From: Halomarina litorea
Lineage (GTDB): Archaea > Halobacteriota > Halobacteria > Halobacteriales > Haloarculaceae
DNA: 64,000 nucleotides
Reading direction: 5' to 3'
Assembly (NCBI RefSeq): GCF_024227715.1
Contig: NZ_CP100448.1
Coordinates: forward strand, 2,315,655-2,379,654
Shown: in pieces, positions 1 through 33,383 of the stretch
How positions within the stretch are numbered: the first letter of the stretch is position 1
How the letters are laid out: each line of letters opens with the position of its first letter
The notes under the pieces: model-generated
What the model was told of the DNA's origin: nothing
The model's input: the letters and a program-made list of their open reading frames with translations, nothing else
Database searches by the model: none
Position numbers and translations under genes: made by a program

Positions 1-182
1 ACAAGACGAAGGTCGGCGGCGGGAGCCTCCTGTTGCTCCTCGGCACCGTCCTCATCGCCGTCCTCGCGTTCGTCTTGATGGCCACGGCCGCACAGGTCGT
101 CGTCGGCCTCCTCGGGACGCTCCTCATCGTCGTCGGGACGCTGTCCGTCGGCACCTCCGGCATCAACGGCCGGGCGGTCTGA
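1..182 (+). CDS. membrane protein, C-terminal part only
   Basis: This is the 3' end of a gene that begins before the window; the frame opens at base 3 and stops with TGA at 180-182, leaving 59 residues. They form two hydrophobic stretches of about 20 residues (Leu/Val/Ile/Ala/Gly-rich) separated by a short polar turn (ATAAQ), so at least two membrane helices, and end in a short polar tail. The sequence is too short and too generic to assign a family. The next gene runs toward it from the opposite strand. Confidence 0.6.
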   Translation, partial: KTKVGGGSLLLLLGTVLIAVLAFVLMATAAQVVVGLLGTLLIVVGTLSVGTSGINGRAV

Positions 183-206
183 GACCGGACGCCCGAGACA
201 CGCCGT

Positions 207-875
207 TCAGGACCAGCACGCTGGTATCGCGTCGAGCAAGTCGACGCGGTCGGTCGGCGTCGGTCCCCCCTCGAACGGGTCGCCCACGAGCACCGAGCGG
301 ACGCCGGCGCGGTTCGCGCCCGTGACGTCCGCCGCGCTGTCGCCCACGTGGGCCGCCTCGCCCGCGGCCACGGAGAGCGCCGACAGCGCCCGTTCGAACG
401 GTTCGACGGCCGGTTTGGCCGGTATCTCCCCGCCCGCACAGACGACCACCTCGAAGGCGTCCGACAGTCCGACCCCCTCGATTTTCGCCCGCTGTGCGTC
501 CGTCGGCCCGTTCGTCACCACGCCGAGTCGGTACGCTCCCTCCAACCGTTCGACCACCTCGCGCGCGCCCGGGAGTGCGACCACGTCCCGGTGGTCGCGT
601 TCGGCGGCGAACGCGCGCGCCACCGCCGCACCCGTCTCCGAGTCGTAGCCGCGTTCGGCCGCGAGCGCCCGGAAACACCGCTCGCGCAGGTCGGCCATCC
701 CGTTGGCCCGTTCGGCGAACTCGTCGAAGCGCTCGTAGTACGCCTCGACGGGGAACAGGGGGTCGACCCCGACCCGGTCGAAGGCGACGGCGAGGACCTC
801 GCCGGGGCTCCGGCAGTAGGTACAGAGCGTGCCGTCGAGGTCGAACGTGACCGCGCGGACGGGTGAGTCAGACAT
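207..875 (-). CDS. HAD superfamily hydrolase
   Basis: This 222-residue protein is probably a small-molecule phosphatase of the haloacid dehalogenase superfamily. All four motifs are visible: the nucleophile motif FDLDGTL (Asp12 and Asp14), Thr121 in VVTNG, Lys154 in IPAKP, and the acidic motif GDSAAD (Asp179, Asp183). The helical cap between motifs I and II (about residues 20-95) marks subfamily I. The substrate cannot be read from the sequence; phosphoglycolate- or nucleotide-phosphatase-like activities are common in this group. Its start overlaps the end of the upstream gene by 8 bp, so the two are co-transcribed, probably together with mch. Confidence 0.85.
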   Translation of the reverse strand: MSDSPVRAVTFDLDGTLCTYCRSPGEVLAVAFDRVGVDPLFPVEAYYERFDEFAERANGMADLRERCFRALAAERGYDSETGAAVARAFAAERDHRDVVALPGAREVVERLEGAYRLGVVTNGPTDAQRAKIEGVGLSDAFEVVVCAGGEIPAKPAVEPFERALSALSVAAGEAAHVGDSAADVTGANRAGVRSVLVGDPFEGGPTPTDRVDLLDAIPACWS

Positions 876-1371
876 CCTCGACCGGTCGGTAGTGTGCCTC
901 CTCGTCCCCGCCGACGCGTTCGGCGAGGCCGAAGGTGACCGCCCACTCCAGCACTCGTTCGACCCGTTCGCGCCACACGTCCGTCCAGTCGGTGCGCCGC
1001 GAGCGCTCCCACTGTGGGACCTCCTCGACGACGCGGTCGAACACCGCCTCGGCGTCGAGGGGGTCGTCCGCGCCGTCGAGGACGGTGAGGACCGCCTCGA
1101 CGGGGTGGACGCGTTCGCGGAACGCGCGCGCGAGGTCCACGTCCTCGGGGGCCTCGCCGGTCTGGTAGTACTGGCCGTCGGTCTCCGCGACGAGGCCGAG
1201 CGCCTGCATGAACGTTATCCACTCGCGGGCGGCGTCCCGGGAGGCGAGGTCCGTGTCCGCCACGAGGCGGGCACAGCAGTCGTCCTCGCTGCCGGGGACG
1301 AGCGGCATCGCCAGTCGTGCCCGTCCGAGGAACGACAGCGGGCGCGGTTCGGGGACGACCTTGAACCTCAT
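868..1371 (-). CDS. conserved haloarchaeal protein of unknown function
   Basis: This is a 167-residue acidic soluble protein that I do not recognise. It is Trp- and Arg-rich in its second half (WERSRRTDWTDVW) and predicted mostly helical. There is no signal peptide, membrane segment or metal-binding cluster, although two adjacent Cys occur near residue 32. It lies 10 bp behind mch and overlaps the HAD gene by 8 bp, so it is the middle gene of a three-gene operon. Length and spacing support a real gene; function is open. Confidence 0.75.
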   Translation of the reverse strand: MRFKVVPEPRPLSFLGRARLAMPLVPGSEDDCCARLVADTDLASRDAAREWITFMQALGLVAETDGQYYQTGEAPEDVDLARAFRERVHPVEAVLTVLDGADDPLDAEAVFDRVVEEVPQWERSRRTDWTDVWRERVERVLEWAVTFGLAERVGGDEEAHYRPVEDV

Positions 1372-1381
1372 CGCTCCCCCA

Positions 1382-2317
1382 CTACCGCAGGCCGAAGGAG
1401 TCGGCCAACATCTCCTCGTCTACCGCCCCGAGGGTGTAGGTGTCCCCGCCGGCCACGTCGATAGTGACCTGCGCGGGGGCGAAGACGCTCTCGGGCACGT
1501 CGTAGAAGTCCCAGTCGGCCTGCTCGAACAGGTCGGCGAACGGCGTGCCGTACTCGTCGCGTGCGGTCGAGGGCACCTCGTCGAAGCGGTCGAACTCGCT
1601 GTCGACGACGAGGTGGACCTCCCCGCCGTAGGCGAGGGCGTCGTTCGTCCGGGCCATCGCGCCCTCCTCGCTGGCGGCGACGGGCGCGACGGGCGCGGCG
1701 GCGCTCACCGAGAGGACGTCGAGGGGGTCGTAGCCCAGTTCCGAGAGGCGGAAGGCGGCGAGTTCGCCCGCGCGAGCGGCCGTCGCCACGCTCCCCGTGA
1801 TGCTCGCCGTCGAGTAGGTGGGCAGGAAGACGCTCCCCACGTCGACGCCCGCGTAGTCGGCGACGTGTTCGGCCGTCGCCTCGGTGGGCAGTTCGTCCGA
1901 CTCTAAGGCGAGGACGGCGAAGTCGAACTCGTCGGCGTAGCCGATGCGGGCGAACTCCTCCTCCTCGGCGACGAGGGCGCGCGCCGGACCGCTCCCCAGT
2001 GCCTCGTAGCCGTCGACCGACACCTCCCAGCCGGCCTTCTGGGCGCACAAAAGCGAGAGCGCGGGGTGGTCGGTCGTCACGTTCACGTAGGTCCGCGGGG
2101 TGCCCGCGAGTCGGCGGACCGAACTGGCGACGCTCGTCAGGCCCGCCGACTGGATCTCGGCGAGCAACATGCCCGCCTCGACTCCCCCCATCGCGTCGAC
2201 GCCGAAGTCGATCACCGTCGCGCCGTTGTCGAGTTCGAACGCGTCGATGGCGAGTTCGTCGAGGAAGTCGAGCGCCTCGTCGACGAGTTCCAACGACATC
2301 CGATTGAGACTCTCCAT
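1382..2317 (-). CDS. mch: methenyltetrahydromethanopterin cyclohydrolase
   Basis: The 311-residue protein matches Mch, which interconverts methenyl- and formyl-tetrahydromethanopterin; in haloarchaea, which do not make methane, the homologue acts in C1 metabolism with a pterin cofactor. Family features include the start MESLNRMSLELVDEALD, the Gly-rich stretch GVDAMGGVEAGMLLAEI, and PTYSTASITGSVATAAR. An in-frame ATG 93 bp further upstream would add a tail unlike the family, so the ATG at 2315-2317 is preferred; a CTTTAG box about 29 bp before it fits a leaderless promoter. First gene of the mch-unknown-HAD operon. Confidence 0.9.
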   Translation of the reverse strand: MESLNRMSLELVDEALDFLDELAIDAFELDNGATVIDFGVDAMGGVEAGMLLAEIQSAGLTSVASSVRRLAGTPRTYVNVTTDHPALSLLCAQKAGWEVSVDGYEALGSGPARALVAEEEEFARIGYADEFDFAVLALESDELPTEATAEHVADYAGVDVGSVFLPTYSTASITGSVATAARAGELAAFRLSELGYDPLDVLSVSAAAPVAPVAASEEGAMARTNDALAYGGEVHLVVDSEFDRFDEVPSTARDEYGTPFADLFEQADWDFYDVPESVFAPAQVTIDVAGGDTYTLGAVDEEMLADSFGLR

Positions 2318-2688
2318 GCGCGTGTCTGGGACGGTTTCGGCTAAAGGGTTTGTCAGTCGGGAGCCGCAGATTTCGGTGTTGCACGAGTAAGCCCGGTATG
2401 GAACACCCACCCTCGACGGGACGACTCGCGCGGCTCGCTGCGCGCTTCACTCGCTCCCGCACGTCACTCGCTCCAGTGCTTGCCGAGCCGTGCATCGTCC
2501 TCCCGTCACGCCCCTTCACTCCGCCAGGTTCCGCACCGCGCCTACCCGACTCCGTCGGCCGCGCACGAGGCGCGGCCAGCCGTCAGCACGGGGGTCGGGA
2601 CTCGGTCACCTTCGGAGGGAGCGGGGGAAGTGGAGTAGACGCTCTCGTCGCGTATCGCGAGTCGATAGGATGGCCCCCTACACTGGCA
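2318..2688. other. gene-free spacer with one hairpin
   Basis: These 371 bases separate the starts of mch from the end of the acyltransferase gene. I see no plausible gene. The mch-proximal end holds its promoter. The middle holds an 8-bp perfect inverted repeat with a 5-base loop (GGCCGCGC, 2557-2564, against 2570-2577). Reading frames crossing it on the plus strand lack haloarchaeal composition. Confidence 0.5.
2557..2577. other. 8-bp stem, 5-base loop hairpin
   Basis: GGCCGCGC is followed after ACGAG by its exact reverse complement. There is no T-run behind it on either strand, so it does not look like a classic terminator. It lies in the spacer behind the acyltransferase gene. Confidence 0.4.
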
Positions 2689-3165
2689 CTACAGCCAGGC
2701 GTCCAAATCCACGACCCGCTGGTTCGGCGGCGACCCGACGACCACCTTCCCCGGACCGACGTCCTCGGTCACCACCGCACCCGCCGCCACGACGCTGTCG
2801 GCCCCGAGTTCGACGCCCGGCGCGACGACCGACCCCGCCCCGACGAACGCCCCCTCGCGGAGGACGACTCGCTCGAAGACGTCGTTGCCGTGTGCCATCC
2901 CGTCCTCGTCGAGGGGATGGGTGACCCCGACGACGCTACAGTTCGGGCCGATTTGCACCTCGTCGCCGATTTTGGCGTTCTCGACGTACGTCCCCGCGTT
3001 GACGACCACGCGGTCGCCGAGGGTGCTCTTCTTCAGGGAGGTCCGTTCGTAGATGCCACAGCCGTCGCCGACCGTCGAGTCGTGGACGGTGACGAACTCG
3101 CGGACCTCCGACTCCCCGATCTCCGAGTCCACGATTCGCGCCGAGTCGTCTACCTGGTCGTTCAT
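2689..3165 (-). CDS. left-handed beta-helix acyltransferase-like protein
   Basis: The 158-residue protein is built from imperfect hexapeptide repeats ([LIV]-G-x-x) over most of its length, for example IGDEVQIG, LREGAFVGAGSVVAPGVELGADSVVAAGAVV, the fold of trimeric O- or N-acyltransferases of the WbbJ/LpxA/gamma-carbonic-anhydrase type. A C-terminal VVVGSPPNQRV resembles the VxGxPAK end of sugar O-acetyltransferases. His87-type residues lie in VTHPLDEDGMAHG. The ATG at 3163-3165 is preferred to a GTG 9 bp upstream. It is divergent from what was the HFX_2341-family gene before the element inserted. The acceptor is not predictable. Confidence 0.8.
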   Translation of the reverse strand: MNDQVDDSARIVDSEIGESEVREFVTVHDSTVGDGCGIYERTSLKKSTLGDRVVVNAGTYVENAKIGDEVQIGPNCSVVGVTHPLDEDGMAHGNDVFERVVLREGAFVGAGSVVAPGVELGADSVVAAGAVVTEDVGPGKVVVGSPPNQRVVDLDAWL

Positions 3166-3201
3166 AAGGGGCACACCCGGCGTCCCGGGTCAAGCGTATC
3201 G

Positions 3202-3238
3202 GTCGTCCGGGGTCTGGCACTTTTTATTACTACCACGA
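3202..3238 (+). promoter_or_regulatory. original (host-side) promoter of the interrupted HFX_2341 gene
   Basis: A TATA-like TTTTTATTA (3221-3229) lies about 27 bp before the ATG at 3252, the spacing of a leaderless haloarchaeal promoter. It aligns without gaps to the promoter in front of the intact gene at 7695-7731 with about 29 of 37 positions identical. The palindrome seen there is degraded here: the left arm GTCTGG is kept and the right arm is not. After integration this promoter faces the integrase gene. Confidence 0.6.
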
Positions 3239-3307
3239 CGCCATGTCACGTATGCAGACGCACATCGTCCCGGTCGGGTTCGACTACGACCGGCTCATCG
3301 CCCCGCT
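3239..3307 (+). repeat. left attachment-site direct repeat
   Basis: These 69 bases are identical to 7732-7800. They cover the start codons and the first 18-21 codons of the HFX_2341-family gene (reading MQTHIVPVGFDYDRLIAPL) and end abruptly at CCCCGCT; beyond that the two copies differ completely. Identity up to an abrupt boundary next to an integrase gene is the pattern of site-specific integration (attL). Confidence 0.85.
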
Positions 3308-3389
3308 GCGCTCCGCGCGGGTTTCGGAGTCTGCTAATGGCAAACACCGACGCAACCCTCGAACCAATCGCGCCCGACACGGCAGTTGA
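3252..3389 (+). pseudogene. 5' remnant of HFX_2341-family gene left of the element
   Basis: The frame from the ATG at 3252 encodes the first 18 or so residues of the regulator (MQTHIVPVGFDYDRLIAPL), then runs into element sequence and stops at 3387-3389 after 45 codons. An upstream ATG at 3243 is also in frame. The open frame overlaps the integrase start (3337) in another frame. It cannot give a functional regulator; the intact gene is at 7745-8653. Confidence 0.75.
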
Positions 3390-4359
3390 GCTTTACCTGA
3401 CCGACCGGCAAGCCGAACTTGCTGCGGAAACCCTCTCGTCCTACGAATACAAGCTGAGTCACTTCACCGAGTGGTGCGAGCGGGAAGACGTCGGCAACCT
3501 CAACGACCTAACCGGGAGGAAGCTGCTACAGTTCAAGCAGGACCGAGCAACCCACCTCGCACCCGTCTCTCTCAAGGGACAGATGGACACGCTACGGTCG
3601 TTCATCCGTTTCTGTGAATCCATCGACGCGGTGGTAACCGACCTGCACAACAAGGTACTCTCCCCATCGCTGAGCCAAGGGGACCGGGAACGTGACGTGC
3701 TGGTAGCCAAGGAGCAAGCAGAAGACGTCCTGACGCATCTCGGACGATTCCAGCACGCTTCCATGCACCACGCACTACTAACCGTCCTATGGCGATGTGG
3801 GGCACGCTCAGGGACAGTGCGGGCGTTCGACGTGCAGGACTACGACCCGGAAAACGCATGGCTACGTGCTGTCCACCGAGAAGGCACGCCCCTCAAGAAC
3901 AAAGAGAAGGGAGAGCGATTGATTGCGCTCAGTCCGGACACCTGCCAAGTGCTGAACGACTACGTAGACCACACGCGCAAGCAAGTTGCCGACGACCATG
4001 GTCGGCAACCGCTGTTCACCACGCAGTTCGGACGGGTGTCCAAGTCCACGATTCGAGAAACCTGCTACAAGTGGACTCACCCGTGTCAGTTCAACGGTGG
4101 CGAGTGTCCGCATGGTCGGGACATGGACAGTTGCCAAGCTCTCACCCCACCTGAGAAGGCCCCGTCCGTGTGTCCATCGTCACGTAGCCCACACGCATGG
4201 CGACGAGGAGCTATCACCCACCATCTGACCGAGGATGTGCCGGTGGAAGTGGTCAGTGACCGCATGAACGTGAGTCCCGATGTGCTGGAAGCGCACTACG
4301 ATAGACGGTCAGAGGAGGTGAAGGTGGAGCAAAGGCGGGGGTATTTGGACGGGCTGTAG
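3337..4359 (+). CDS. tyrosine recombinase / site-specific integrase
   Basis: The 340-residue protein has a SAM-like core-binding domain (about residues 12-110) and a catalytic domain with the full set of family residues: Arg157 in RCGARSG, a lysine in the KNKEKGE beta-turn (187-191), His286 and Arg289 in PHAWRRG, and the nucleophile Tyr321 in EAHYDRR. Between them lies a Cys cluster (Cys243, 250, 257, 266; PCQFNGGECPHG) resembling the zinc-binding insert of haloarchaeal virus and plasmid integrases. The gene begins 30 bp inside the element, next to the left repeat, as expected of an integrase that acts on that site. In the integrated state it lies 85 bp downstream of the host promoter at about 3225. 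Confidence 0.92.
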   Translation: MANTDATLEPIAPDTAVELYLTDRQAELAAETLSSYEYKLSHFTEWCEREDVGNLNDLTGRKLLQFKQDRATHLAPVSLKGQMDTLRSFIRFCESIDAVVTDLHNKVLSPSLSQGDRERDVLVAKEQAEDVLTHLGRFQHASMHHALLTVLWRCGARSGTVRAFDVQDYDPENAWLRAVHREGTPLKNKEKGERLIALSPDTCQVLNDYVDHTRKQVADDHGRQPLFTTQFGRVSKSTIRETCYKWTHPCQFNGGECPHGRDMDSCQALTPPEKAPSVCPSSRSPHAWRRGAITHHLTEDVPVEVVSDRMNVSPDVLEAHYDRRSEEVKVEQRRGYLDGL

Positions 4360-4432
4360 CACACTAACCTGAGCAAGACGGGCAGGGCTCATACATTCTT
4401 TTGACGACGAGTTTGCCAGCTCTGTATCTCTT

Positions 4433-4741
4433 TTACAAGCGGTGCGCTTCTAATCGTGACACGACATGTTTTCCCACGTAGAAAGACAGTACAAGTGAAA
4501 GAGAGAATATAATGCCATATGCGAAGAACATTGCAATTCCTATTCCAGAGACAGTTGCTAAACTAATGATTCCCAACAGTCCGAGGCCAATAGTGCCCAA
4601 AACCAGACTAACTGTGAACGACCCGTAGAGAATGTACTGGATATAGAGCATCCACGGTCGTTTTGAGGACGTGTACTCGCGTTCCATATCCACCTTCGAC
4701 ATTTTAGAGTAATCAGAATCGGAGTCAGACAATAGCACCAC
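4433..4741 (-). CDS. small membrane protein of the element
   Basis: A protein of up to 102 residues with a polar, acidic N-terminus and three hydrophobic segments (about residues 33-55, 56-75 and 76-93) ending in a basic tail. The frame opens with GTG at 4741; an ATG at 4702 gives an 89-residue version that keeps all membrane segments and may be the true start. No family recognised. It is AT-rich like the rest of the element and reads toward the integrase. Virus or plasmid membrane proteins of this size are common in haloarchaeal elements, but that is only context. Confidence 0.55.
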   Translation of the reverse strand: MVLLSDSDSDYSKMSKVDMEREYTSSKRPWMLYIQYILYGSFTVSLVLGTIGLGLLGIISLATVSGIGIAMFFAYGIIFSLSLVLSFYVGKHVVSRLEAHRL

Positions 4742-5089
4742 CTCGAACCGGGTGGATTGTGTCTATGGCAAGTCTGTTTACGTTCATAACTCGGATTCAT
4801 TGGTATCTGTGATAACATTAATTCATGAGAACGTACTCTTTGACAGTACATTCAAACGTCTAATATAGCAGTATATCAAACATTTCGGCATTACCGATAC
4901 CTCCGCTTATACTCTCCCACAGTCTTGCTCACCCGACTGCGTGAGCTTTCACTATACCGCCACCGCTTAGCAGCCACCCACTCTGCTCGCATTCCTGTCT
5001 TGGCCCCTACTGGTCAAAGCCACCAGCGTAGACCAGCCCTGCTGCCTGAACGTCAGTTCTGTGTGCTAACAACGTTATACGAGAAGTGC
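4742..5089. other. gene-free spacer in element
   Basis: These roughly 350 AT-rich bases lie between two minus-strand membrane-protein genes. I see no open frame worth calling, only weak inverted repeats such as CTCAC-N8-GTGAG near 4927. The part next to 4742 presumably holds the promoter of the small membrane protein. Confidence 0.4.
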
Positions 5090-5677
5090 TTATAGCCAAA
5101 TTACGACAGTCATTGATACCACGGTCCAGAGAAGGGTAGCCGCAACTACGATTGCATTACCTTTGTCCCGCGTTCGTGACTGGACCCACCGCCGTAGTTC
5201 TGTGAGTTTCAGGGTTTGGGCCGGGTCAAACGGGTGGAATGTGATTATATCGTGTTCTCGCTCTACGCTGTCTTTGTACTCAGCGAACACAATAGCATTA
5301 GGGCCAACCATTGCCCCAAGTTCCATATTTAGTTGATTCTCTATCGACTTGGGATGTCCAACTGCTACCTTGATACGCTGAACCTCGCCTGAGAGTGGAT
5401 AATACGAGTCAACCGCTTCTACTAACTCCTTGAATCCGTCCTCTCCCGTCTCGATTACGCCTACCCGTACCGACCCGGATTTGAATACGATTTCTTCCAG
5501 CGTGTCTATTCCATCTGTCGCTTGACGCCTATACCGTGAGAACCGGGGATACAATGGTGCAACAAGTCCAATTACGGCAGTGAGTCCGATTTGAAGCCCT
5601 CTCAGAATTGCCTCCCAACAGAGCCATGAAATACACTGAGAGACTACAGTACTGTTATGCGCTATGAGGAAACTCAT
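5090..5677 (-). CDS. two-helix membrane protein with a central soluble domain
   Basis: The 195-residue protein (from the ATG at 5677; a TTG at 5713 is the longer alternative) has a hydrophobic segment near residues 21-45 and a second at the very C-terminus (about 174-195). The region between, about 125 residues, is soluble and mixed alpha/beta in character (VRVGVIETGEDGFKELVEAV, VQRIKVAVGHP). With this arrangement both ends sit near the membrane and the middle domain on one side. I recognise no family. Its start overlaps the end of the zinc-ribbon gene, so the two are translated from one message. Confidence 0.6.
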   Translation of the reverse strand: MSFLIAHNSTVVSQCISWLCWEAILRGLQIGLTAVIGLVAPLYPRFSRYRRQATDGIDTLEEIVFKSGSVRVGVIETGEDGFKELVEAVDSYYPLSGEVQRIKVAVGHPKSIENQLNMELGAMVGPNAIVFAEYKDSVEREHDIITFHPFDPAQTLKLTELRRWVQSRTRDKGNAIVVAATLLWTVVSMTVVIWL

Positions 5678-5897
5678 TGTACGAGTCACAGTCAGGACAC
5701 TGAATAGTAGCAAGTATGTGAAAATTTGGAAATACTTCAGCTAAGCCGTTGTCACAGTTGTAACATGTATACTCAATATTTGATGGGTCTGTTGAGAATA
5801 CCGGAGTTTCATCGGGTATGAATAGCGGCTGCTCACCAGAGTCACTTCTTGACATGGCTTCCTGTTCGCTTATCGAGTCCATGCTAAGTTGGCGCAT
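5655..5897 (-). CDS. small zinc-ribbon protein of the element
   Basis: The 80-residue protein has an acidic Ser-rich N-terminal half and a single zinc ribbon: Cys45-x2-Cys48 and Cys67-x2-Cys70. Such modules usually bind nucleic acid or a protein partner. A TTAATA box about 31 bp before the ATG (rc of 5924-5932) is a likely promoter. It overlaps the start of the following two-helix membrane protein, which suggests the pair works together. I assign no specific role. Confidence 0.6.
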   Translation of the reverse strand: MRQLSMDSISEQEAMSRSDSGEQPLFIPDETPVFSTDPSNIEYTCYNCDNGLAEVFPNFHILATIQCPDCDSYNEFPHSA

Positions 5898-6364
5898 GGT
5901 ATGTACTATAAACTAAGATACATGTATTAAGTTGTTTGGTAAGACGCCTCGCCGTGTGCTATAGACGTGACTGGACGGACGACATCCCCACCCACCTACA
6001 CGTTCGTGCCCGTGCCTCCGGCGCTACGCGGGCTTTCGCTTTCCGCTAAGCAGCAAGTGACGCATACATCTGTTCGTGACGGGCAGGCAGACACTTGGTA
6101 CACTCTGCCGCACCAGTGACGCACACAATTTGTCAGCCTGCTTGCATGGTAAGCCGTGGCGCGTGTCGATGCTGCCTACCATGAACAACTTGCCAACATA
6201 TGAATTTTTGTGAATCATGATTTCATGAACGAATCTGTGCCAATCGTTGGGGAAATTGAACTGTCCATGGGAATGGCACCCATGTATAGAAATTTACAAA
6301 CAACATCTTTTCGTGCAGCCTGTGTGAATTAACAAATTTTTCCAGACGACTCCAGCAGCGGCTA

Positions 6365-6490
6365 CAGCACCGCACCGCACAGCACCGTACAGCACAGCAA
6401 CCACGCACGCGACCGCAACAGCACAACACCGCACAGCACCGCAACACACCGCACAGCACCGCACAACACCGCAACAGCACCGCACCGCAC
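6365..6490. repeat. low-complexity CAGCACCGCA short-repeat tract
   Basis: About 125 bases are built of irregularly alternating CACCGCA, CAGCACCG, CAACACCG and CAACAG units. On the plus strand G and T are scarce, giving strong strand asymmetry. Frames read through it give Cys/Gly/Val/Ala-rich nonsense, so it is not coding. Confidence 0.75.
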
Positions 6491-6527
6491 GAGACGCAGG
6501 TACCCGGTGCCCGTCTTACTTAGAATC

Positions 6528-6631
6528 TTACGTAAACCGTCTAAAGAAACGTCTACGTAGACTTCTGATGGAATATAGGTTACGTAAACCGTCTAAAGAA
6601 ACGTCTACGTAGACTTCTGATGGAATGTAGG
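6528..6631. repeat. 52-bp tandem direct repeat (two units) with internal palindromes
   Basis: Units 6528-6579 and 6580-6631 differ at one base (6575 A, 6627 G). Each contains two perfect palindromes, TTACGTAA at its left edge and GTCTACGTAGAC in the middle (6551-6562 and 6603-6614), with the shared core TACGTA. The arrangement is like iterons or a tandem operator for a dimeric DNA-binding protein. No spacer separates the units, so this is not a CRISPR. Confidence 0.85.
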
Positions 6632-7704
6632 GAATCGTCACGACCATGGCGTTAGTTCTACAACCAACATGGGCAGAACTGAGGCATTCCTGAAATCGCT
6701 GAGGATTCCTCAGTTTAGCCGCTATTGTATTTCTTACTTAGGTTAGTACCAAACATCATATTTTGACTACTAATTGCTCAAAACGGCTCTCAAGGAATCA
6801 CTGAACCAGTAGTTGCCAGCGATACGGAAATTTTACCTTCAAATAAAATTTTCTCGACATGGGTTACAATCCACCATTACACTTTTGGTCTGTACCCTGC
6901 CCGTCTATAATAACACACAACAAGAGATGCGCTCAAGCGACTTCGCCACCGTCACCACAATAGTACGTCGCTCACTCCTTTCTCACATTCCAGCTACCGT
7001 ACTGCCACCGCAGATTTGAGCAGCAGTTATCTACCCCCCAACTTCTCGTCAACATTCTCAAAATCATGAGCGTGTTACTGGTAGCTGAAACTGGAAATTT
7101 TGTCTCGGAGTCACCTACTACAGAGCACGCACGCATCCGCTTCGTGTCAAAAGGGGGTGGGGAGGCTTTATCATCATCTGAGTACATCAATGCTCAGTTA
7201 CGTACGTTCCAATAGCCAGCCTCCCTCATACAGGGGTTCGCTGGGGGTGGACATGTGGCCATTGTTGTATGAGTCGATGACTAGTAGAGGTTCATAAATG
7301 CCAAGGTAAGAGATGGTGTGCTAGAGGAATACATAAATATAGTCTGTAGGACTAATGGCCGGTGTCGGATTTTCGAGGGCCAATTAATAGTTCCGCGCGC
7401 AGGGAAGGCCAAGGGTCAATCCCCGGCCCCACTGTCATCGTAGGCCGGTGGCCCGACCATGTGCTGAAGAGTGTGACCGGGGGTGCCCGTCTTGTTCAAA
7501 TGGGTTATCAAACGAGCTAACCAACTGGTACGCCCGCCAGTTGCTCACCACGTTTGACAAGCTTGTCGCGGTGCGATAACGGTCAAATGGTGTGGGGGCA
7601 GGTCGTCTCAGCCAAAAAACTAAGCTACCAGCCTACATCGATTCCTCAGAAGCCCGCGACGGCGCGGGGGCAAACATCGGTAATGTGTGGTTGAGTGGTC
7701 CGGC

Positions 7705-7731
7705 GTCTGGTACTTTTTATAAGTACCAGAC
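7705..7731 (+). promoter_or_regulatory. perfect palindrome over the TATA box of the HFX_2341-family gene
   Basis: Arms of 11 bases (GTCTGGTACTT and its exact complement AAGTACCAGAC) flank TTTAT, so the operator covers the TATA element itself. The TATA centre lies about 27 bp before the ATG at 7745. A protein bound here would block TBP; the winged-helix protein encoded just downstream is the obvious candidate. This copy is element-derived, and is more symmetrical than the host copy at 3212-3238. Confidence 0.75.
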
Positions 7732-7800
7732 CGCCATGTCACGTATGCAGACGCACATCGTCCCGGTCGGGTTCGACTACGACCGGCTCATCGCCCCGCT
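7732..7800 (+). repeat. right attachment-site direct repeat
   Basis: Exact 69-base copy of 3239-3307, here continuing into the intact gene. Together with the left copy it bounds the integrated element (attR). Confidence 0.85.
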
Positions 7801-8653
7801 CGTCCGGGACCAACTCGACGTGGACCGCGTCATCCTGTTGGAGGGCGCGGTGGGCAGCGAGGCCAACGTCGAGTACTCGCGGAACCTCGCGACGAAACTG
7901 GAGAAGGACTTCCGGAACCTCCTCGGTGCCGAGACGGAGCGGTTCGTCATCGAGGACGTCTACGACTACGACACGGCCTTCGAGCAGGCGTACGACCTCG
8001 TCAACGCCGAACTGGACCGCGAGGGGCGCGAGGAGGGGGAAGTGTGGGTGAACGTCTCCTCGATGCCCCGCACCGTCTCCTTCGCGTTCGCTACTGCCGC
8101 CCACTCCATCATGGTCGAGCGACAGAGCGACCGGGACCGCCTGCACACCTACTACACCGTCCCCGAGAAGTACCTCGAGACGGAACTCGCCGAGGAGTTG
8201 CGGGAGGGACTGGACCTGCTGGCGGAGGTGCGCGATTCGAGCGTCGACTCGGAGCGCGTCGACGAGTGGCTGGAGGGCGCACGTGACCTGCTCTCGGAGT
8301 TCGACGAGCGCGGGACGACCATCGGCGCGAAGGAGATAGCGGGGGGTCACGTCGTCGAACTCCCCGTCGCCTCCTTCTCGAACGTCAAGCCCTTCGAGGA
8401 ACTCATCCTGTTCACCCTCGGGGAGCACGGCGTCTTCGAGTCCGTCTCCGAGTTGGCCCAGACGCTCGCCCGCGATCTGGGCGAGGAGTACACCGACTCC
8501 TTCCGGTCGAAGGTTATCTACAACGTCGACCGACTGGGCCCGGGCGGGAAGGGGTACATCGAACAGGAAGAGCATGGAAAGTCCTACCGGACGCGCCTGT
8601 CGCGAATCGGAAGCCTGTGGGTGCGCTCGCACGCGGACGGCGACGAGCGCTGA
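7745..8653 (+). CDS. HFX_2341-family regulator: CARF-like sensor plus winged helix
   Basis: The 302-residue protein has an N-terminal Rossmann-like domain resembling CARF domains of Csa3-type regulators: PVGFDYD at residues 7-13, then VDRVILLEG, and a second ligand-loop-like motif VNVSSMPRTVS at about 102-112. The C-terminal part (about 214-296) is a winged helix (LFTLGEHGVFESVSELAQTL). Family knowledge suggests ligand-controlled transcription; a nucleotide ligand is an inference. The ATG at 7745 is chosen over one at 7736 because it gives a leaderless start 27 bp from the TATA box. A palindrome covers that box. The first 18 codons double as the attachment site of the element. Confidence 0.8.
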   Translation: MQTHIVPVGFDYDRLIAPLVRDQLDVDRVILLEGAVGSEANVEYSRNLATKLEKDFRNLLGAETERFVIEDVYDYDTAFEQAYDLVNAELDREGREEGEVWVNVSSMPRTVSFAFATAAHSIMVERQSDRDRLHTYYTVPEKYLETELAEELREGLDLLAEVRDSSVDSERVDEWLEGARDLLSEFDERGTTIGAKEIAGGHVVELPVASFSNVKPFEELILFTLGEHGVFESVSELAQTLARDLGEEYTDSFRSKVIYNVDRLGPGGKGYIEQEEHGKSYRTRLSRIGSLWVRSHADGDER

Positions 8654-8680
8654 GTCCCCCGCATCCCCGCACCACCTTCG

Positions 8681-9439
8681 CTACTGGCCCGTCGACCGGT
8701 TCTCCAGTTTCTTCACGCGCGTCGCGAGGGCGAGGAACGTCGCCAGCAGGGTGAGGACCACGGCACCGGCGGCGGCAAGTTCGTGGGCCGGGAGGGTGTG
8801 GTCGAAGCCCGACCCGGTCCACTCGGTGGGGATACCGGTGTGGTGGAGACCGGCGACGGGGACGAAGTAGTCCACGAGGTCGTTCAGCCCGTACCAGAAC
8901 AGGGCGACGGCGACGGCCCAGACGGGGAAGTCGCTGTAGCGATGGATCAGGAAGGCCTCGACGATCATCGCGAGGTGGCTCGTAAAGAGGAAGGCGTAGA
9001 GCCACAGTTCGGTGGTGGCGAGGAAGTCGGCGCTGAAGACGGTGAGGACGTACGGCGTCCACGCGCCGAGCTTGATACAACCATAGAAGGCGAGTGCGTC
9101 CAACCACGGGGCGTCCCAGCCGAGTCGCCAGCCCAGCAACGAGAGACCGATGAACAGCGTGGCGACGGGGCTGTCGGGGACGAACGGCCACATGTAGGTG
9201 GGGGTGCGGGCGAACTGCCCGGCGACGACGGGGTCTGAGAACGGGTGGATGCCGTAGTACCAGAAACCGAACGCGGTGCCGACGATGTTGACGCCCGCGA
9301 TGAGGTACGCGAGGCGGAGGCCGAAGTCCTCCAGCGCGTCCGGGAGGGGGGCGACGTACCACGGGAGGGACTCGCGCGGGGGGAGCGGCCCGTCGAGCAG
9401 GGCGGCGAGGCGGCCCCCCGGCGCGCCGTCTGATGCCAT
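8681..9439 (-). CDS. DUF1405-type integral membrane protein
   Basis: The 252-residue protein has about six to seven hydrophobic segments and the features of the DUF1405 family, such as NIVGTAFGFWYYG near the N-terminus, and YGCIKLGAWTPYVL and HLAMIVEAFL in the centre. Function of the family is unknown. The ATG at 9439 gives a start just before the first membrane segment; upstream in-frame starts would add an unrelated tail. It is divergent from pdxS across about 115 bp. Confidence 0.8.
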   Translation of the reverse strand: MASDGAPGGRLAALLDGPLPPRESLPWYVAPLPDALEDFGLRLAYLIAGVNIVGTAFGFWYYGIHPFSDPVVAGQFARTPTYMWPFVPDSPVATLFIGLSLLGWRLGWDAPWLDALAFYGCIKLGAWTPYVLTVFSADFLATTELWLYAFLFTSHLAMIVEAFLIHRYSDFPVWAVAVALFWYGLNDLVDYFVPVAGLHHTGIPTEWTGSGFDHTLPAHELAAAGAVVLTLLATFLALATRVKKLENRSTGQ

Positions 9440-9556
9440 GAGGGAGCGTCGGAAGACGGCGGCAAAACCCTGCTGGTCGGAGCGGAGGGTTCCGGTCGCG
9501 AACCGGACGACGACGGAAGGACACGCGTTAAGTGCGTTCCGTCCTGACGAGGGGAT

Positions 9557-10465
9557 ATGAGCGACGAGACGGACATCGAGGAACTGAAGCGCGGGACGGA
9601 CCTCGTCAAGCGAGGCTTCGCGAAGATGCAGAAGGGCGGCGTCATCATGGACGTCGTCACGCGCGAACAGGCCCGCATCGCAGAGGACACGGGCGCAGTG
9701 GCGGTCATGTCCCTCGAGGCGGTCCCCGCGGACATCCGCAAGCGCGGCGGCGTCGCCCGGATGGCCGACCCGGCGGCCCTGAGCGAGATCATCGACGAGG
9801 TGTCCATCCCCGTGATGGGCAAGTGCCGCATCGGGCACACCACCGAGGCCCAGATTCTGGAGGCGACGGGCGCGGACATGTTAGACGAGAGCGAGGTGCT
9901 CACCCCGGCGGACAACGAGTACCACATCGACAAGCGCGAGTTCACCGCCCCGTTCGTCTGTGGCGCGCGCAACCTCCCCGAGGCCCTCCGTCGCATCGAC
10001 GAGGGCGCGGCGATGATTCGGACGAAGGGCGAGGCCGGCACCGGCGACGTCAACCAGGCGGTCACCCACCAGCGGGCCATCAAGTCGGCCATCCGCGAAC
10101 TGGTCGGCAAGACCTTCGAGGAGCGCGAGAAGTGGGCGCGCGAACACGAGGCACCCGCGGATCTCGTCCACGAGACGGCCGAGATGGAGCGTCTGCCGGT
10201 CGTCAACTTCGCGGCCGGTGGCATCGCGACGCCCGCCGACGCCGCCCTGATGATGCACCACGGCTGTGACGGTATCTTCGTCGGGTCCGGCATCTTCGGC
10301 GCGGAGGACCCCGAGGCGATGGGGTCGGCCATCGTCGAGGCGGTCAACAACTGGGACGACCCCGAGCGACTCGCGGAGATCGCGACCGGTATCGGCCGCG
10401 GCATGAAGGGTCAGTCGAACACCGGGATGCCCGAGGAGGAGAAACTCCAGGGCCGCGGCGTCTGA
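9557..10465 (+). CDS. pdxS: pyridoxal 5'-phosphate synthase, lyase subunit PdxS
   Basis: PdxS condenses ribose 5-phosphate, glyceraldehyde 3-phosphate and ammonia to PLP; the ammonia comes from the glutaminase PdxT, which is not in this window. The 302-residue protein is full length. Visible are Asp32 (IMDVV), the Schiff-base Lys89 in [10 protein letters not shown], and the second lysine Lys157 in [11 protein letters not shown], plus the phosphate loops [13 protein letters not shown] and [16 protein letters not shown] box about 28 bp before the ATG is a likely promoter. Confidence 0.97.
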
Positions 10466-10571
10466 TCGGACAGTTCGACACCGTTTCGACCGTTTCGCGA
10501 CCGTTCCGTCTATCTCCCGAGCTTTTCGGTCGGCTAACTAAGGTCGGTGAGTCCGTCCTCGTGACCAGCTC

Positions 10572-11171
10572 ATGCAGAGAGACGACCTCGGATTTCTCGC
10601 AGTCGTCCTGCTCGGCGTCGCACTGGTCGTCGTCCCCGGCGGCTACTTCGCGCTCACCGGGCTCGGCGACGTGCTGGCCGGCACCGACGCCCCCGCCGGG
10701 CCGCCGGGCAACAACTCCACCGACCTGACCAACGCGACGGAGACGACGTCCGCCGAGACCACCGACGCGACGGAGACGGCCGCGCCGTCGACCACGGAGC
10801 GGGCGACGACGGAACCGGACACCGAGACGCCGGAACCCACGCCGGAGCCGACGGCGACGCCCACAGCGACGCCCGAACCGACGGCGACACCGGAGCCGAC
10901 GCCGGACCCCACGGCGACGGCGACACCCACCGAGACGCCCACGGCGACACCAGAGCCGACTCCCACGCCCACGCCGGAGCCGACGCCGACGGCGACGGCG
11001 ACGGCGACACCCACCGAGACGGAGACGCCCCGTGACGGGAACATCAGCGGGAGCGACAACAGCGGACGGGGAAACAGCGACGACCCGGCCTCGGAGCGTG
11101 AGGACCACGACGACGAAGCGGAGGGAGAGGAAGAAGAGAACGACAGCCTGCTGACGGTCAGTCTTCCGTAG
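10572..11171 (+). CDS. N-terminally anchored Pro/Thr-rich surface protein
   Basis: The 199-residue protein has one hydrophobic helix near its N-terminus (about residues 8-33) without an obvious cleavage site, so it is probably an uncleaved anchor with the rest outside. Residues 45-150 are almost only Thr, Pro, Glu, Ala (repeats of TPEPT, TATPT), with many possible O-glycosylation sites and N-x-T/S sequons (NNST, NATE). The tail is very acidic with Asn/Ser. It is a paralogue of the protein at 13674: the anchors share VVL-GV-L-VVPG-YFA and the GD-LAG that follows. It overlaps the oppositely oriented Gfo/Idh/MocA gene by 14 bp. Confidence 0.75.
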   Translation: MQRDDLGFLAVVLLGVALVVVPGGYFALTGLGDVLAGTDAPAGPPGNNSTDLTNATETTSAETTDATETAAPSTTERATTEPDTETPEPTPEPTATPTATPEPTATPEPTPDPTATATPTETPTATPEPTPTPTPEPTPTATATATPTETETPRDGNISGSDNSGRGNSDDPASEREDHDDEAEGEEEENDSLLTVSLP

Positions 11172-12321
11172 CGACCGTCTCCGCCTCGCCCTCCGAGTCG
11201 TCCTCGTCACCGAACAGCGTGTCCAGCGGGTTGTCCTCGATGTCGAGCGGGAGGTCGACGCGCCCGCGGCGGCGCGCGGACTCCCAGGACGCATAGGTCA
11301 GCTCGGTCCCGGCGAGGGCGTTGCGCCCCGAGATTTCGGGTTCGCGGTCCTCGCGGAGGGCGGCGACGACCTCCTCGATGGCCCGCTCGTAGAACGACGG
11401 GCGGGCCATGGTGCGGTCCGAGACGAACGGCGCCTTCTTCACGACCTTCCGGAGCCCCGCCTGGAACAGCGAGTAGTCGGGCGCGTGGATGGTGTCCTTC
11501 GTCGAGACGGTCTTCCACTTGCTCCCGTCGGTGCGGTAGCGCAGGGCGGGGCCGTCCTCGACGCCGAGTTCGATGACGCCGTCCTCGCCGATGAGGCGCA
11601 TGTAACAGCCGATCATGCCCATGCCGTCGCCGGTGGCGGCGAGACAGTAGACGCCGTTGGTGTACTTGATCTGCGAGAGGCCGTGGTTCTCGTTTCGCGA
11701 CCCGAACCAGACGTTCTCCTCGCTGGTGTCGACGCCCGCGAGTACCCACTCGGCGTGGGCGTCGTCGGTGTAGTACCGACAGAGGTCGAACTCGTGGACG
11801 CCGGCGTCGAAGAGGTTGTCCTCCGCCCACTCGATTCGCACGAGGTCGCCGACGGTGCCGTCGTCGAGCAGGTCCTTCGCCTCGCGGAAGGGCGCGCCGA
11901 AGCGGCGCTGGTTGTCGATGGTAAGCTGGACGTCGTTCCGTTCGCAGGCTTCGACCATCCGCTTGCAGTCGGCCCACGTCGTCGCCATGGGTTTCTCGCA
12001 GTGGACGGCCTTCGGGATGCCGCTCTCGGCACAGCCGACCGTGATGTCGGCGTGGAACTTCGGGGGCACGCAGATGCTCACGATGTCGGGGCGCGCCTCG
12101 CGGAGCATCGCCTCGTAGTCCTCGAAGACGTGCTCCTCGGGGATGTCGAAGCGGTCGGCGAACGCCTCGGCGTTCTCGCGGACGATGTCCGCGCAGGCGA
12201 CCAGTTCGCAGTCGTCGAGTCGGAGGTAGCCCGGTGCGTGTCGGTACGCCATCGCGTAGCCACTGCGGTCTTTCTTCTCGGGGTCCGCCCCAGTGCCGAT
12301 GATAGCAACGGTGTATCCCAT
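11158..12321 (-). CDS. Gfo/Idh/MocA family NAD(P)-dependent oxidoreductase
   Basis: The 387-residue protein has an N-terminal Rossmann domain (VAIIGTGADP at 5-14) and the family signature VHCEKPMA with Glu-Lys-Pro at 109-111, which precedes the catalytic domain. These enzymes oxidise, reduce or epimerise sugars and inositols. The glycosyltransferase gene lies 41 bp upstream on the same strand, so a role in making or modifying a sugar nucleotide or glycan is a reasonable inference. The last 50 residues are acidic and probably disordered. Confidence 0.88.
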   Translation of the reverse strand: MGYTVAIIGTGADPEKKDRSGYAMAYRHAPGYLRLDDCELVACADIVRENAEAFADRFDIPEEHVFEDYEAMLREARPDIVSICVPPKFHADITVGCAESGIPKAVHCEKPMATTWADCKRMVEACERNDVQLTIDNQRRFGAPFREAKDLLDDGTVGDLVRIEWAEDNLFDAGVHEFDLCRYYTDDAHAEWVLAGVDTSEENVWFGSRNENHGLSQIKYTNGVYCLAATGDGMGMIGCYMRLIGEDGVIELGVEDGPALRYRTDGSKWKTVSTKDTIHAPDYSLFQAGLRKVVKKAPFVSDRTMARPSFYERAIEEVVAALREDREPEISGRNALAGTELTYASWESARRRGRVDLPLDIEDNPLDTLFGDEDDSEGEAETVATED

Positions 12322-12362: not shown

Positions 12363-13487
12363 CTAACGCGGCGCCGTCGGGGTTACCGACTCGTTGCGCT
12401 CACAGCCGGCGCGCTGGTAGGTGCGGTCGGTCTTGCGTGCGACGGTCCCCCAGTCGAAGCGGTCGACCTTCTCGCGGTTGTGCCGGCCCATCCCCTCGAG
12501 GTCGGCCTCGAGGGCGGCCACGAGCGCCTCTCGGAGGCCGTTCGGGTCCGCGCTGTCGTACGCGAATCCGCCCACGTCGTCGATGAGTTCGCCGACGCAG
12601 CCCTCTCGCGGGGCGACGACGGGCCGCCCGAAGGACATCCCCAGCATCGTCGTCCCCGAGGTGAGCACCTCGGAGAAGGGGAAGACGGTCACGTCCGCGG
12701 CGTTCATGTACAGCTGGATGTCGTCGTCGGGGACGAACTCCAGCACCGGGTGGACGCGGTCGTCGGCCGCACACAGGTCGCGAATCTCCGCCTCGAGGTC
12801 GTCGGTCCACGGGTTGCCGACGACGAGCAGTCGGGCGTCCTCGTCGTCGATGGTCGAGAAGGTCCGGACGAGCTCCGGGACGTTCTTGTACGACCGGATG
12901 AGGCCGAAGTAGAGGAAGACGGTCTCGTCGTCGAACTCGAGTTGGTCGCGGGCGGTGGCGCGCGAGACGTCGTTGGTGTAGCTCCCGACGTAGTGCCCGT
13001 GCGGGACGACGTCGATGCGCTCCTCGACGGACTGCGGGAGGCGGTAGGAACGGCATACCGCCTCGCGGGCGGCCCGACAGTGGACGATGATGCGGTCACA
13101 GAGACGAGAGGCGACGTGCCGGACGGCGCGTTCGGTGCGGGGCGACCGGCCCTCGTGGTCGGTGAGGTTGTGGACCGTCCAGACGACGTTGACGCCGAGC
13201 GCCCGGAGGACGGCCATCTCGAGGAGGAGGCGGACTCCGAGCAGGAAGGTCAACACCGAGGAGTCGGTGACGAACGAGCGGTGGAGCCAGTGGACGTGGA
13301 ACACGTCCGGGCGCCCGTGTGCCACGACGGCACCGAGCAGGGGAAGGGGGTTTCGTTGTCGGCACAGCTGGACGTCGTACCCGCGGTCGGTCAGCCCGTC
13401 TCGGAGCTTCTGCTGGTAGGTGTTGCTGTCCGAGTAGTCCGGGTACATCAACACCGTACACGGCTCGTTGGGGGACGTTCGGGACAC
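12363..13487 (-). CDS. glycosyltransferase, GT4/GT-B type
   Basis: The 374-residue protein shows the two-domain GT-B layout: an N-terminal acceptor domain with VFHVHWLH and VVWTVHNL, and a C-terminal nucleotide-sugar domain with VFLYFGLIRSYKN, LLVVGNPW and FPFSEVLTSGTTMLGMSFG, the last matching the E-x7-E region of retaining GT4 enzymes. No membrane segment, so it acts in the cytoplasm or at the inner membrane face. It stands first in a pair with the Gfo/Idh/MocA gene and between two Pro/Thr-rich surface proteins; these are possible acceptors by context only. Confidence 0.85.
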   Translation of the reverse strand: MSRTSPNEPCTVLMYPDYSDSNTYQQKLRDGLTDRGYDVQLCRQRNPLPLLGAVVAHGRPDVFHVHWLHRSFVTDSSVLTFLLGVRLLLEMAVLRALGVNVVWTVHNLTDHEGRSPRTERAVRHVASRLCDRIIVHCRAAREAVCRSYRLPQSVEERIDVVPHGHYVGSYTNDVSRATARDQLEFDDETVFLYFGLIRSYKNVPELVRTFSTIDDEDARLLVVGNPWTDDLEAEIRDLCAADDRVHPVLEFVPDDDIQLYMNAADVTVFPFSEVLTSGTTMLGMSFGRPVVAPREGCVGELIDDVGGFAYDSADPNGLREALVAALEADLEGMGRHNREKVDRFDWGTVARKTDRTYQRAGCERNESVTPTAPR

Positions 13488-32695: not shown

Positions 32696-33262
32696 ATGGA
32701 CTCCGACGACGACCGGGAACGTGCGGTCGAGGCGGCCTTCCCCGAACTGGCCGCAATCGAGGACGACGCCCTGCGGGCGGGCGTGCGGCGCGCGTGGACG
32801 ACGGCGATGGCCGACACCGGCTGTTCGGACCTGACGTCGGTGCCGTGGTTCCCGCCCGCCCAGCGGCGACTGGGCATCGACGACGAGTTCCTCGTCGACC
32901 ACGTCCGGGACGTGACCCGCCTCGCGGTGGCGATGGCGGAGACGCTCCACGACTGCCGGACCGTCGACTGTGACCTCGATACGGTCCTCGTGGGGGCGCT
33001 CGTCCACGACGTCTCGAAACTGTACGAGTTCGACGGGATGGACGAGACGCCGGTGGGTGACCTGCTCGGCCACCCCCACTACGGCGTCCACGTCGTCTCG
33101 CGGGCGGGCCTGCCCGTCGAGTACGCCCACGTCGTCCTCTCGCACACGGGCCGGACGACGGTCGACCCGGCGACGCTGGAGGCCGAGATAATCAAACGGG
33201 CCGACGAGGTGGCCGCGAGCGCCATCCGACTGCGCGCCCTCGACGACCTGCGCGACGCGTAG
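32696..33262 (+). CDS. HD domain phosphohydrolase
   Basis: The 188-residue protein has the HD motif HDVSKLYEF near residues 103-111, preceded by a helix with His (HVRDVTRLAVAMAETLH) and followed by HPHYGVHVVSRAGLP and the distal Asp region (IIKRADEVAA), the H...HD...D metal set of this superfamily. Substrate unknown; small nucleotides are typical. It lies 130 bp behind carB. Confidence 0.85.
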   Translation: MDSDDDRERAVEAAFPELAAIEDDALRAGVRRAWTTAMADTGCSDLTSVPWFPPAQRRLGIDDEFLVDHVRDVTRLAVAMAETLHDCRTVDCDLDTVLVGALVHDVSKLYEFDGMDETPVGDLLGHPHYGVHVVSRAGLPVEYAHVVLSHTGRTTVDPATLEAEIIKRADEVAASAIRLRALDDLRDA

Positions 33263-33267
33263 CTCAA

Positions 33268-33332
33268 CACGTGCTCTCGACGGCCTGCGCGGGGCAGTGG
33301 CCGTCACGTGCTCTCGACGGCCTGCGCGGGGC
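33268..33332. repeat. 28-bp direct repeat, 37-bp period
   Basis: The 28 bases beginning CACGTGCTCTCGACGGCC occur at 33268-33295 and again, unchanged, at 33305-33332, separated by nine bases, in the spacer between the HD gene and the NmrA-like gene. Each copy starts with the palindrome CACGTG. Confidence 0.8.
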
Positions 33333-33383
33333 GTCGGGCGGGACGCCGAAACGCCGATACCCCTCCCGCGTGTCGGTCCGTCG

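Follow-up and report, generated by a model that had tools for sequence, protein, structure and literature searches.

The closest described relatives of the locus analysed here are the SNJ2-type (IntSNJ2) integrative elements and the betapleolipoviruses of haloarchaea, with direct-repeat att sites and a restored target; SNJ2 itself targets a tRNA gene. Iteron-type plasmid origins are a further point of comparison, iteron arrays being made of several short repeats, typically about 20 bp long and three or more in number. An element belongs to the SNJ2 family, according to PMC8371274, when its integrase shares 30% identity or more with family members over 60% or more of the length. The SNJ2/Rep-Arvir origin is described in PMC13107129 as a conserved hairpin and an inverted repeat directly downstream of the Rep-Arvir gene, and PMC3528665 describes haloarchaeal orc/cdc6 origins as inverted ORBs with a G-string adjoining an orc/cdc6 gene. 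HFX_2341 of Haloferax mediterranei, named crr, is presented in PMC11434293 as a global regulator whose over-expression strongly lowers cas transcripts, an effect that could be indirect according to its authors. The same paper reports a putative transposable element at the HFX_2341 locus and nowhere uses the term "integrase" (PMC11434293).

The window, by which we mean the whole 64,000-nucleotide stretch from Halomarina litorea, contains an integrated mobile element of 4.49 kb flanked by 106-bp direct repeats at 3202-3307 and 7695-7800 (Table 1). Its integrase is similar over the full length to those of SNJ2 (45.9% identity over 100% of the query), HHPV4 (44.0%) and Halfgib1 (43.1%), which places it within the SNJ2 family. 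It matched a PHROG integrase profile at E=2.2e-24, and the Pfam matches to the Phage_integrase domain PF00589 (E=2.3e-4) and the SAM-like N-terminal domain PF02899 (E=0.0015) were each weaker than the curated cut-off. As in SNJ2-type elements, the att sites are direct repeats, with a 69-bp identical core, and the target is restored: the insertion lies exactly at the crr start codon, and crr is left intact at the right end. Unlike SNJ2, the window element targets the start of a protein-coding gene, and no tRNA target was found in the window. It also differs from SNJ2-type elements in its size of 4.5 kb, in having no recognised Rep or virion gene, and in carrying a pair of 52-bp repeats. The mobile-element setting suggested in the preliminary description is thus supported by the direct repeats, the SNJ2-type integrase and the same-site relatives described below.

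Four genes were recognised in the element, and ORF translations, PHROG and Pfam identified no replication or partition gene among them, which agrees with the earlier remark that no Rep-like gene lies near the repeats. Homologues of orfB at E<=0.001 were found in 16 of 391 haloarchaeal genomes, the own genome counted. In the region 5090-5897, orfC encodes a small protein with two CxxC pairs and orfB a protein whose ends are hydrophobic; both are conserved in the sister element, and together they form a candidate cargo module. An Rfam search of positions 1-12000 at E<=1 found no known RNA, and considered as an RNA the segment 7345-7640 was not unusually stable (z -1.2).

Table 1. Features of the integrated element and its target, in window coordinates
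Feature	Position	Strand	Remarks
attL, left direct repeat	3202..3307	+	98/106 bases in common with 7695-7800; identical core 3239-3307, 69 bp
SNJ2-type tyrosine integrase, 340 aa	3337..4359	+	45.9% identity to SNJ2 integrase, 100% of 329-aa query
orfA, 102 aa, hydrophobic	4433..4741	-	without family match; no counterpart found in the compared relatives
orfB, 207 aa	5090..5713	-	no family above cut-off; 66% identical in Halomarina rubra sister
orfC, 80 aa, two CxxC pairs	5655..5897	-	58% identical in Halomarina rubra sister
Non-coding right part holding the array	5898..7731	.	about 1.8 kb; no credible gene, no Rfam match
CAGCACCGCA-type low-complexity tract	6364..6490	.	left of the array, ending 37 bp from it
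Repeat unit 1	6528..6579	.	palindromes TTACGTAA 6528-6535 and GTCTACGTAGAC 6551-6562; A at 6575
Repeat unit 2	6580..6631	.	palindromes TTACGTAA 6580-6587 and GTCTACGTAGAC 6603-6614; G at 6627
Conserved right-end block of element	7649..7687	+	GAAGCCC...GGCAAACATCGG...ATGTG
attR, right direct repeat	7695..7800	+	identical core 7732-7800
Element-borne crr promoter	7705..7731	+	11-bp perfect inverted repeat around TTTAT: GTCTGGTACTT-TTTAT-AAGTACCAGAC
Target gene, HFX_2341/crr family regulator	7736..8653	+	PF19810 E=5.9e-25; PF24989 E=1.9e-33

The repeats at 6528-6631 form a head-to-tail tandem pair of two 52-bp units that are identical at 51 of 52 positions, and TRF returned 2.0 copies with 98% matches. 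The structure first described, with a single differing base and nested TACGTA palindromes, was confirmed. Each unit contains two exact dyads, both with a TACGTA core, and the cores follow one another across the array at 25, 27 and 25 bp. For the palindrome TTACGTAA, 0.13 occurrences would be expected in the window and two are present; none of 100 shuffles reached two. The inner period of about 26 bp is weak, since 29 of 1000 shuffles of the unit scored equally well. With a GC content of 39%, against 50% in the non-coding part of the element and 69-70% in the flanks, the array area is AT-richer than the window. Tracts resembling the low-complexity tract to its left are present in many haloarchaeal genomes. 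Another imperfect tandem repeat of the window, at 33239-33334 (period 37, 2.6 copies), apparently lies at a gene end.

In its own genome the unit is found at one place, so a dispersed chromosomal repeat, the outcome that would have refuted the preliminary description, was rejected. The comparison with plasmids and viruses that it had proposed gave no plasmid match and three phage records, at E=4. In the family search, matches at E<=1 were obtained in 10 of 146 genomes, all but the own one being 16-28 bp long with E of at least 0.06. The spaced paired motif was found in two of the 391 genomes of the class search, with three hits in the own genome and a single unrelated pair in the other; a reversed control pattern gave two hits, in G277. 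A match at the crr locus of genome G009 (L133; 14 bp exact, 82% over 28 bp, 0.8 kb upstream of crr) was taken as chance because it lies inside a 267-aa sulfatase-like frame (named by eye). The pattern TACGTARAC-N14-20-TACGTARAC matched 33 IMG/VR stretches. The 26-bp tandem repeats ATTTACGTAAACGTTTGCGTACAACC of IMG/VR contigs L056 and L073 were rejected as lookalikes: they share tandem TTACGTAAAC motifs with the array, but differ from it in unit length and sequence, and the contigs have 39-40% GC. As far as searched, in 146 genomes of the family and 391 of the class, the unit appears to be private to this element. Its absence elsewhere is judged from these two dedicated searches, as another scan scored no more than two candidates per genome.

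Within the 3.88-Mb genome, exact copies of GTCTACGTAGAC are confined to the array (two), while up to one mismatch gave 12 places. The GTTTACGTAAAC pattern with two mismatches was found at 27 places, the four in the array included, against 15 for its reversed control. On these counts, a host regulon was rejected as not clearly discernible.

Relatives of the integrase were found at 14 loci in the named-genome scan, five of them at 72-84% identity: Halomarina rubra (locus L032), Haloarchaeobius sp. FL176, Haloferax profundi, Haloglomus halophilum and Halobacterium sp. CBA1126. At all five, a short duplicate of the crr start lies next to the integrase, and a crr match covering the whole or almost the whole gene is found elsewhere. 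Element sizes could be read from one contig in four of the five (about 5.2 kb at L032, 12.1 kb at L091, 15.3 kb at L092 and 9.3 kb at L093); the two ends of the Haloferax profundi element lie on different contigs. Further crr sites are occupied, for example at L127 (integrase 76% identical) and at L128 (truncated integrase). The latter, in genome G001, is a degenerate crr-site element of about 2.6 kb whose integrase matches the first 138 residues only. A tandem-array scan of 19 related loci (237,560 bases) returned seven arrays above the cut-offs, all seven within open frames of at least 370 codons, and at none of the 19 was an array comparable to the window pair found outside a long open frame.

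Some of the same-site elements carry restriction-modification cargo. Pfam and PADLOC assigned a DpnII-type endonuclease and a D12 methyltransferase to L091, while type I restriction-modification-like frames at L092 and a large fused restriction-methylase frame at L093 were recognised by eye. Given this cargo at the three loci, the start of crr resembles a hot spot for defence islands.

The Halomarina rubra element (L032 7861-13145) has the same target gene as the window element. The two share the integrase at 83-84% identity as well as orfB and orfC (Table 1), and their right ends are 63% identical over 255 bp. Neither the 52-bp unit nor orfA was found in L032, which is set apart from the window element by an HTH gene, a Rep-like gene and a palindromic triple repeat of its own. 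These three palindromic repeats, of the TCGCARAAGTGCGA type and spaced by 32 and 30 bp, lie at 12429-12509, directly upstream of the HTH and Rep-like genes. The Rep-like protein (278 aa), which is encoded between the parts shared with the window element, gave weak tblastn matches at 25-27% identity to pNB101 (E=0.01), a 2.5-kb plasmid on which the match is annotated as replication-related, and to pSN (E=0.002), a 2.3-kb plasmid. The protein had no Pfam and no phage match, so "Rep-like" is a weak label, and tblastn of it against the window element gave no match. Given the position of the TCGCARAAGTGCGA-type repeats beside the HTH and Rep-like genes, the element family does carry module-specific palindromic repeats. 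They differ in sequence from the 52-bp unit and, by analogy, may express the same idea, namely the association of palindromic repeats with a module for regulation or replication.

Among the functions proposed in the preliminary description, an operator is the favoured one, as a putative role argued by analogy with the L032 repeats. Tentatively, and at somewhat less than even chances, the array may be an operator or an initiator-binding site specific to this element, which lacks the corresponding protein. Two dyads per unit would suit dimeric DNA-binding proteins, and sites centred on TACGTA and spaced by 25-27 bp, the pair recurring after 52 bp (about five helical turns), could allow cooperative binding. 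The binder would be a protein of the element family, either a repressor like the L032 HTH protein or a replication initiator, and once bound would control a neighbouring module. As the gene for the binder is absent here, the array would be an operator or set of binding sites left without its protein, or else a site served in trans. Exact dyads are present, but no binding protein was recognised in the element and the nearest credible gene start, that of orfC (5897), is 630 bp off; on the other side no credible start precedes crr, and L032 lacks the unit. Near-perfect copies are, moreover, equally expected from a recent neutral tandem duplication, in which slippage copied 52 bp of non-coding DNA and the palindromes are idle or one copy is active. 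We regard such a duplication as quite possible: there are just two copies, their unit is not known elsewhere from the family and class searches, the low-complexity tract ends nearby, and the weak inner period, which speaks against an operator, is in keeping with it. It accounts less readily for two exact dyads with the same core in every unit, and for the confinement of the 12-bp dyad to the array in the entire genome. We infer that a protein-binding role is to be favoured, with neutral duplication close behind; most safely, the array can be described as DNA specific to the element that arose by tandem duplication of a two-dyad unit.

The replication origin and the partition site also proposed for the pair were not supported. 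The array resembles iteron-type plasmid origins in its head-to-tail direct repeats, which lie in the most AT-rich, non-coding part of the element, but it has two long units and no adjoining initiator gene. An iteron origin of the excised circle, for which the host or a related element would provide the initiator in trans, is therefore improbable, even though L032 encodes a distant relative of the pNB101 and pSN proteins: the window element has no recognised Rep and no counterpart of that protein, and no repeat of the 52-bp type stands beside the L032 gene. By gene content, the Rep-adjacent hairpin and inverted repeat of the SNJ2 rolling-circle origin (PMC13107129) have no equivalent here, as no replication gene was recognised in the element. 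Likewise, judged by eye, the units lack a G-string, and neither an ORB-like array nor an orc/cdc6 gene was seen in the element. Neither in the window element nor in L032 does the non-coding DNA contain the nick heptamer of rolling-circle replication in small haloarchaeal plasmids. Tandem palindromes within a mobile element would also suit a centromere-like partition site or an accessory arm site for integrase or excisionase. This is more doubtful still, because the element has no recognised partition gene, the array lies 1.1 kb from the att core, and the right-end block conserved among the relatives differs from the array and adjoins the core. Least probable is a short gene or a non-coding RNA. 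The description of the area as gene-free holds: the single ORF of at least 25 codons over the array has 39 codons and lies on the minus strand at 6528-6647. Since 52 is not a multiple of 3, the two copies fall in different reading frames, and the array is thus not coding in any ordinary sense. Folded as single-stranded DNA it gives a z-score of -2.5, but this score arises from the palindromes pairing with each other, and Rfam offers no match.

The target of the element is near-universal: of 242 haloarchaeal genomes, 233 have a crr-family match. Directly left of the attL core is the host-side crr promoter, which has no perfect repeat of the kind found in the element-borne promoter. As read from the sequence, the inserted element gives crr a new promoter and puts the old one ahead of the integrase. 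Inside their right ends the related elements are alike, with GAAGCCC...GGCAAACA...ATGTG ahead of a promoter that contains a TATA element, after which crr starts. The block at 7649-7687 may be integrase arm or upstream control DNA, and together with the TATA-centred dyad (7649-7731) it is a candidate integrase arm site and/or regulated promoter. Block-consensus scores were 16-38 at 10 of 11 element-related loci and 6 at L132, the scoring being descriptive because three of the elements scored are similar to the consensus. Of 30 crr loci, 27 scored at most 14, and the other three (the own locus, L032 and L133) are also among the 11 element-related loci. No SNJ2-type integrase was seen on the stretch examined at L129, L130, L132 or L133. 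Perfect TATA-centred repeats with arms of at least 7 bp occur at four of the 11. Bare crr promoters in many cases have a CTGGT..TTTTTATAA..ACC core in common with the element promoter, which may mean that the element does no more than imitate the native promoter and so keeps crr working.

A more speculative proposal, to which we give a modest chance, is that this SNJ2-type family attaches at the crr start codon and swaps the promoter of the regulator for its own, so that integration would couple integrase expression to host defence control, the 52-bp pair being an added, element-specific control site of the switch. In the part of the full-text literature that was searched, we found no account of elements attaching to crr. 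Taken alone, the repeat is a modest find, and its setting at crr carries more weight: a mobile haloarchaeal family sits at the first codons of a near-universal regulator linked to CRISPR-Cas repression, restoring the gene and replacing its promoter. Through possession of the crr promoter, such elements might adjust host defence.
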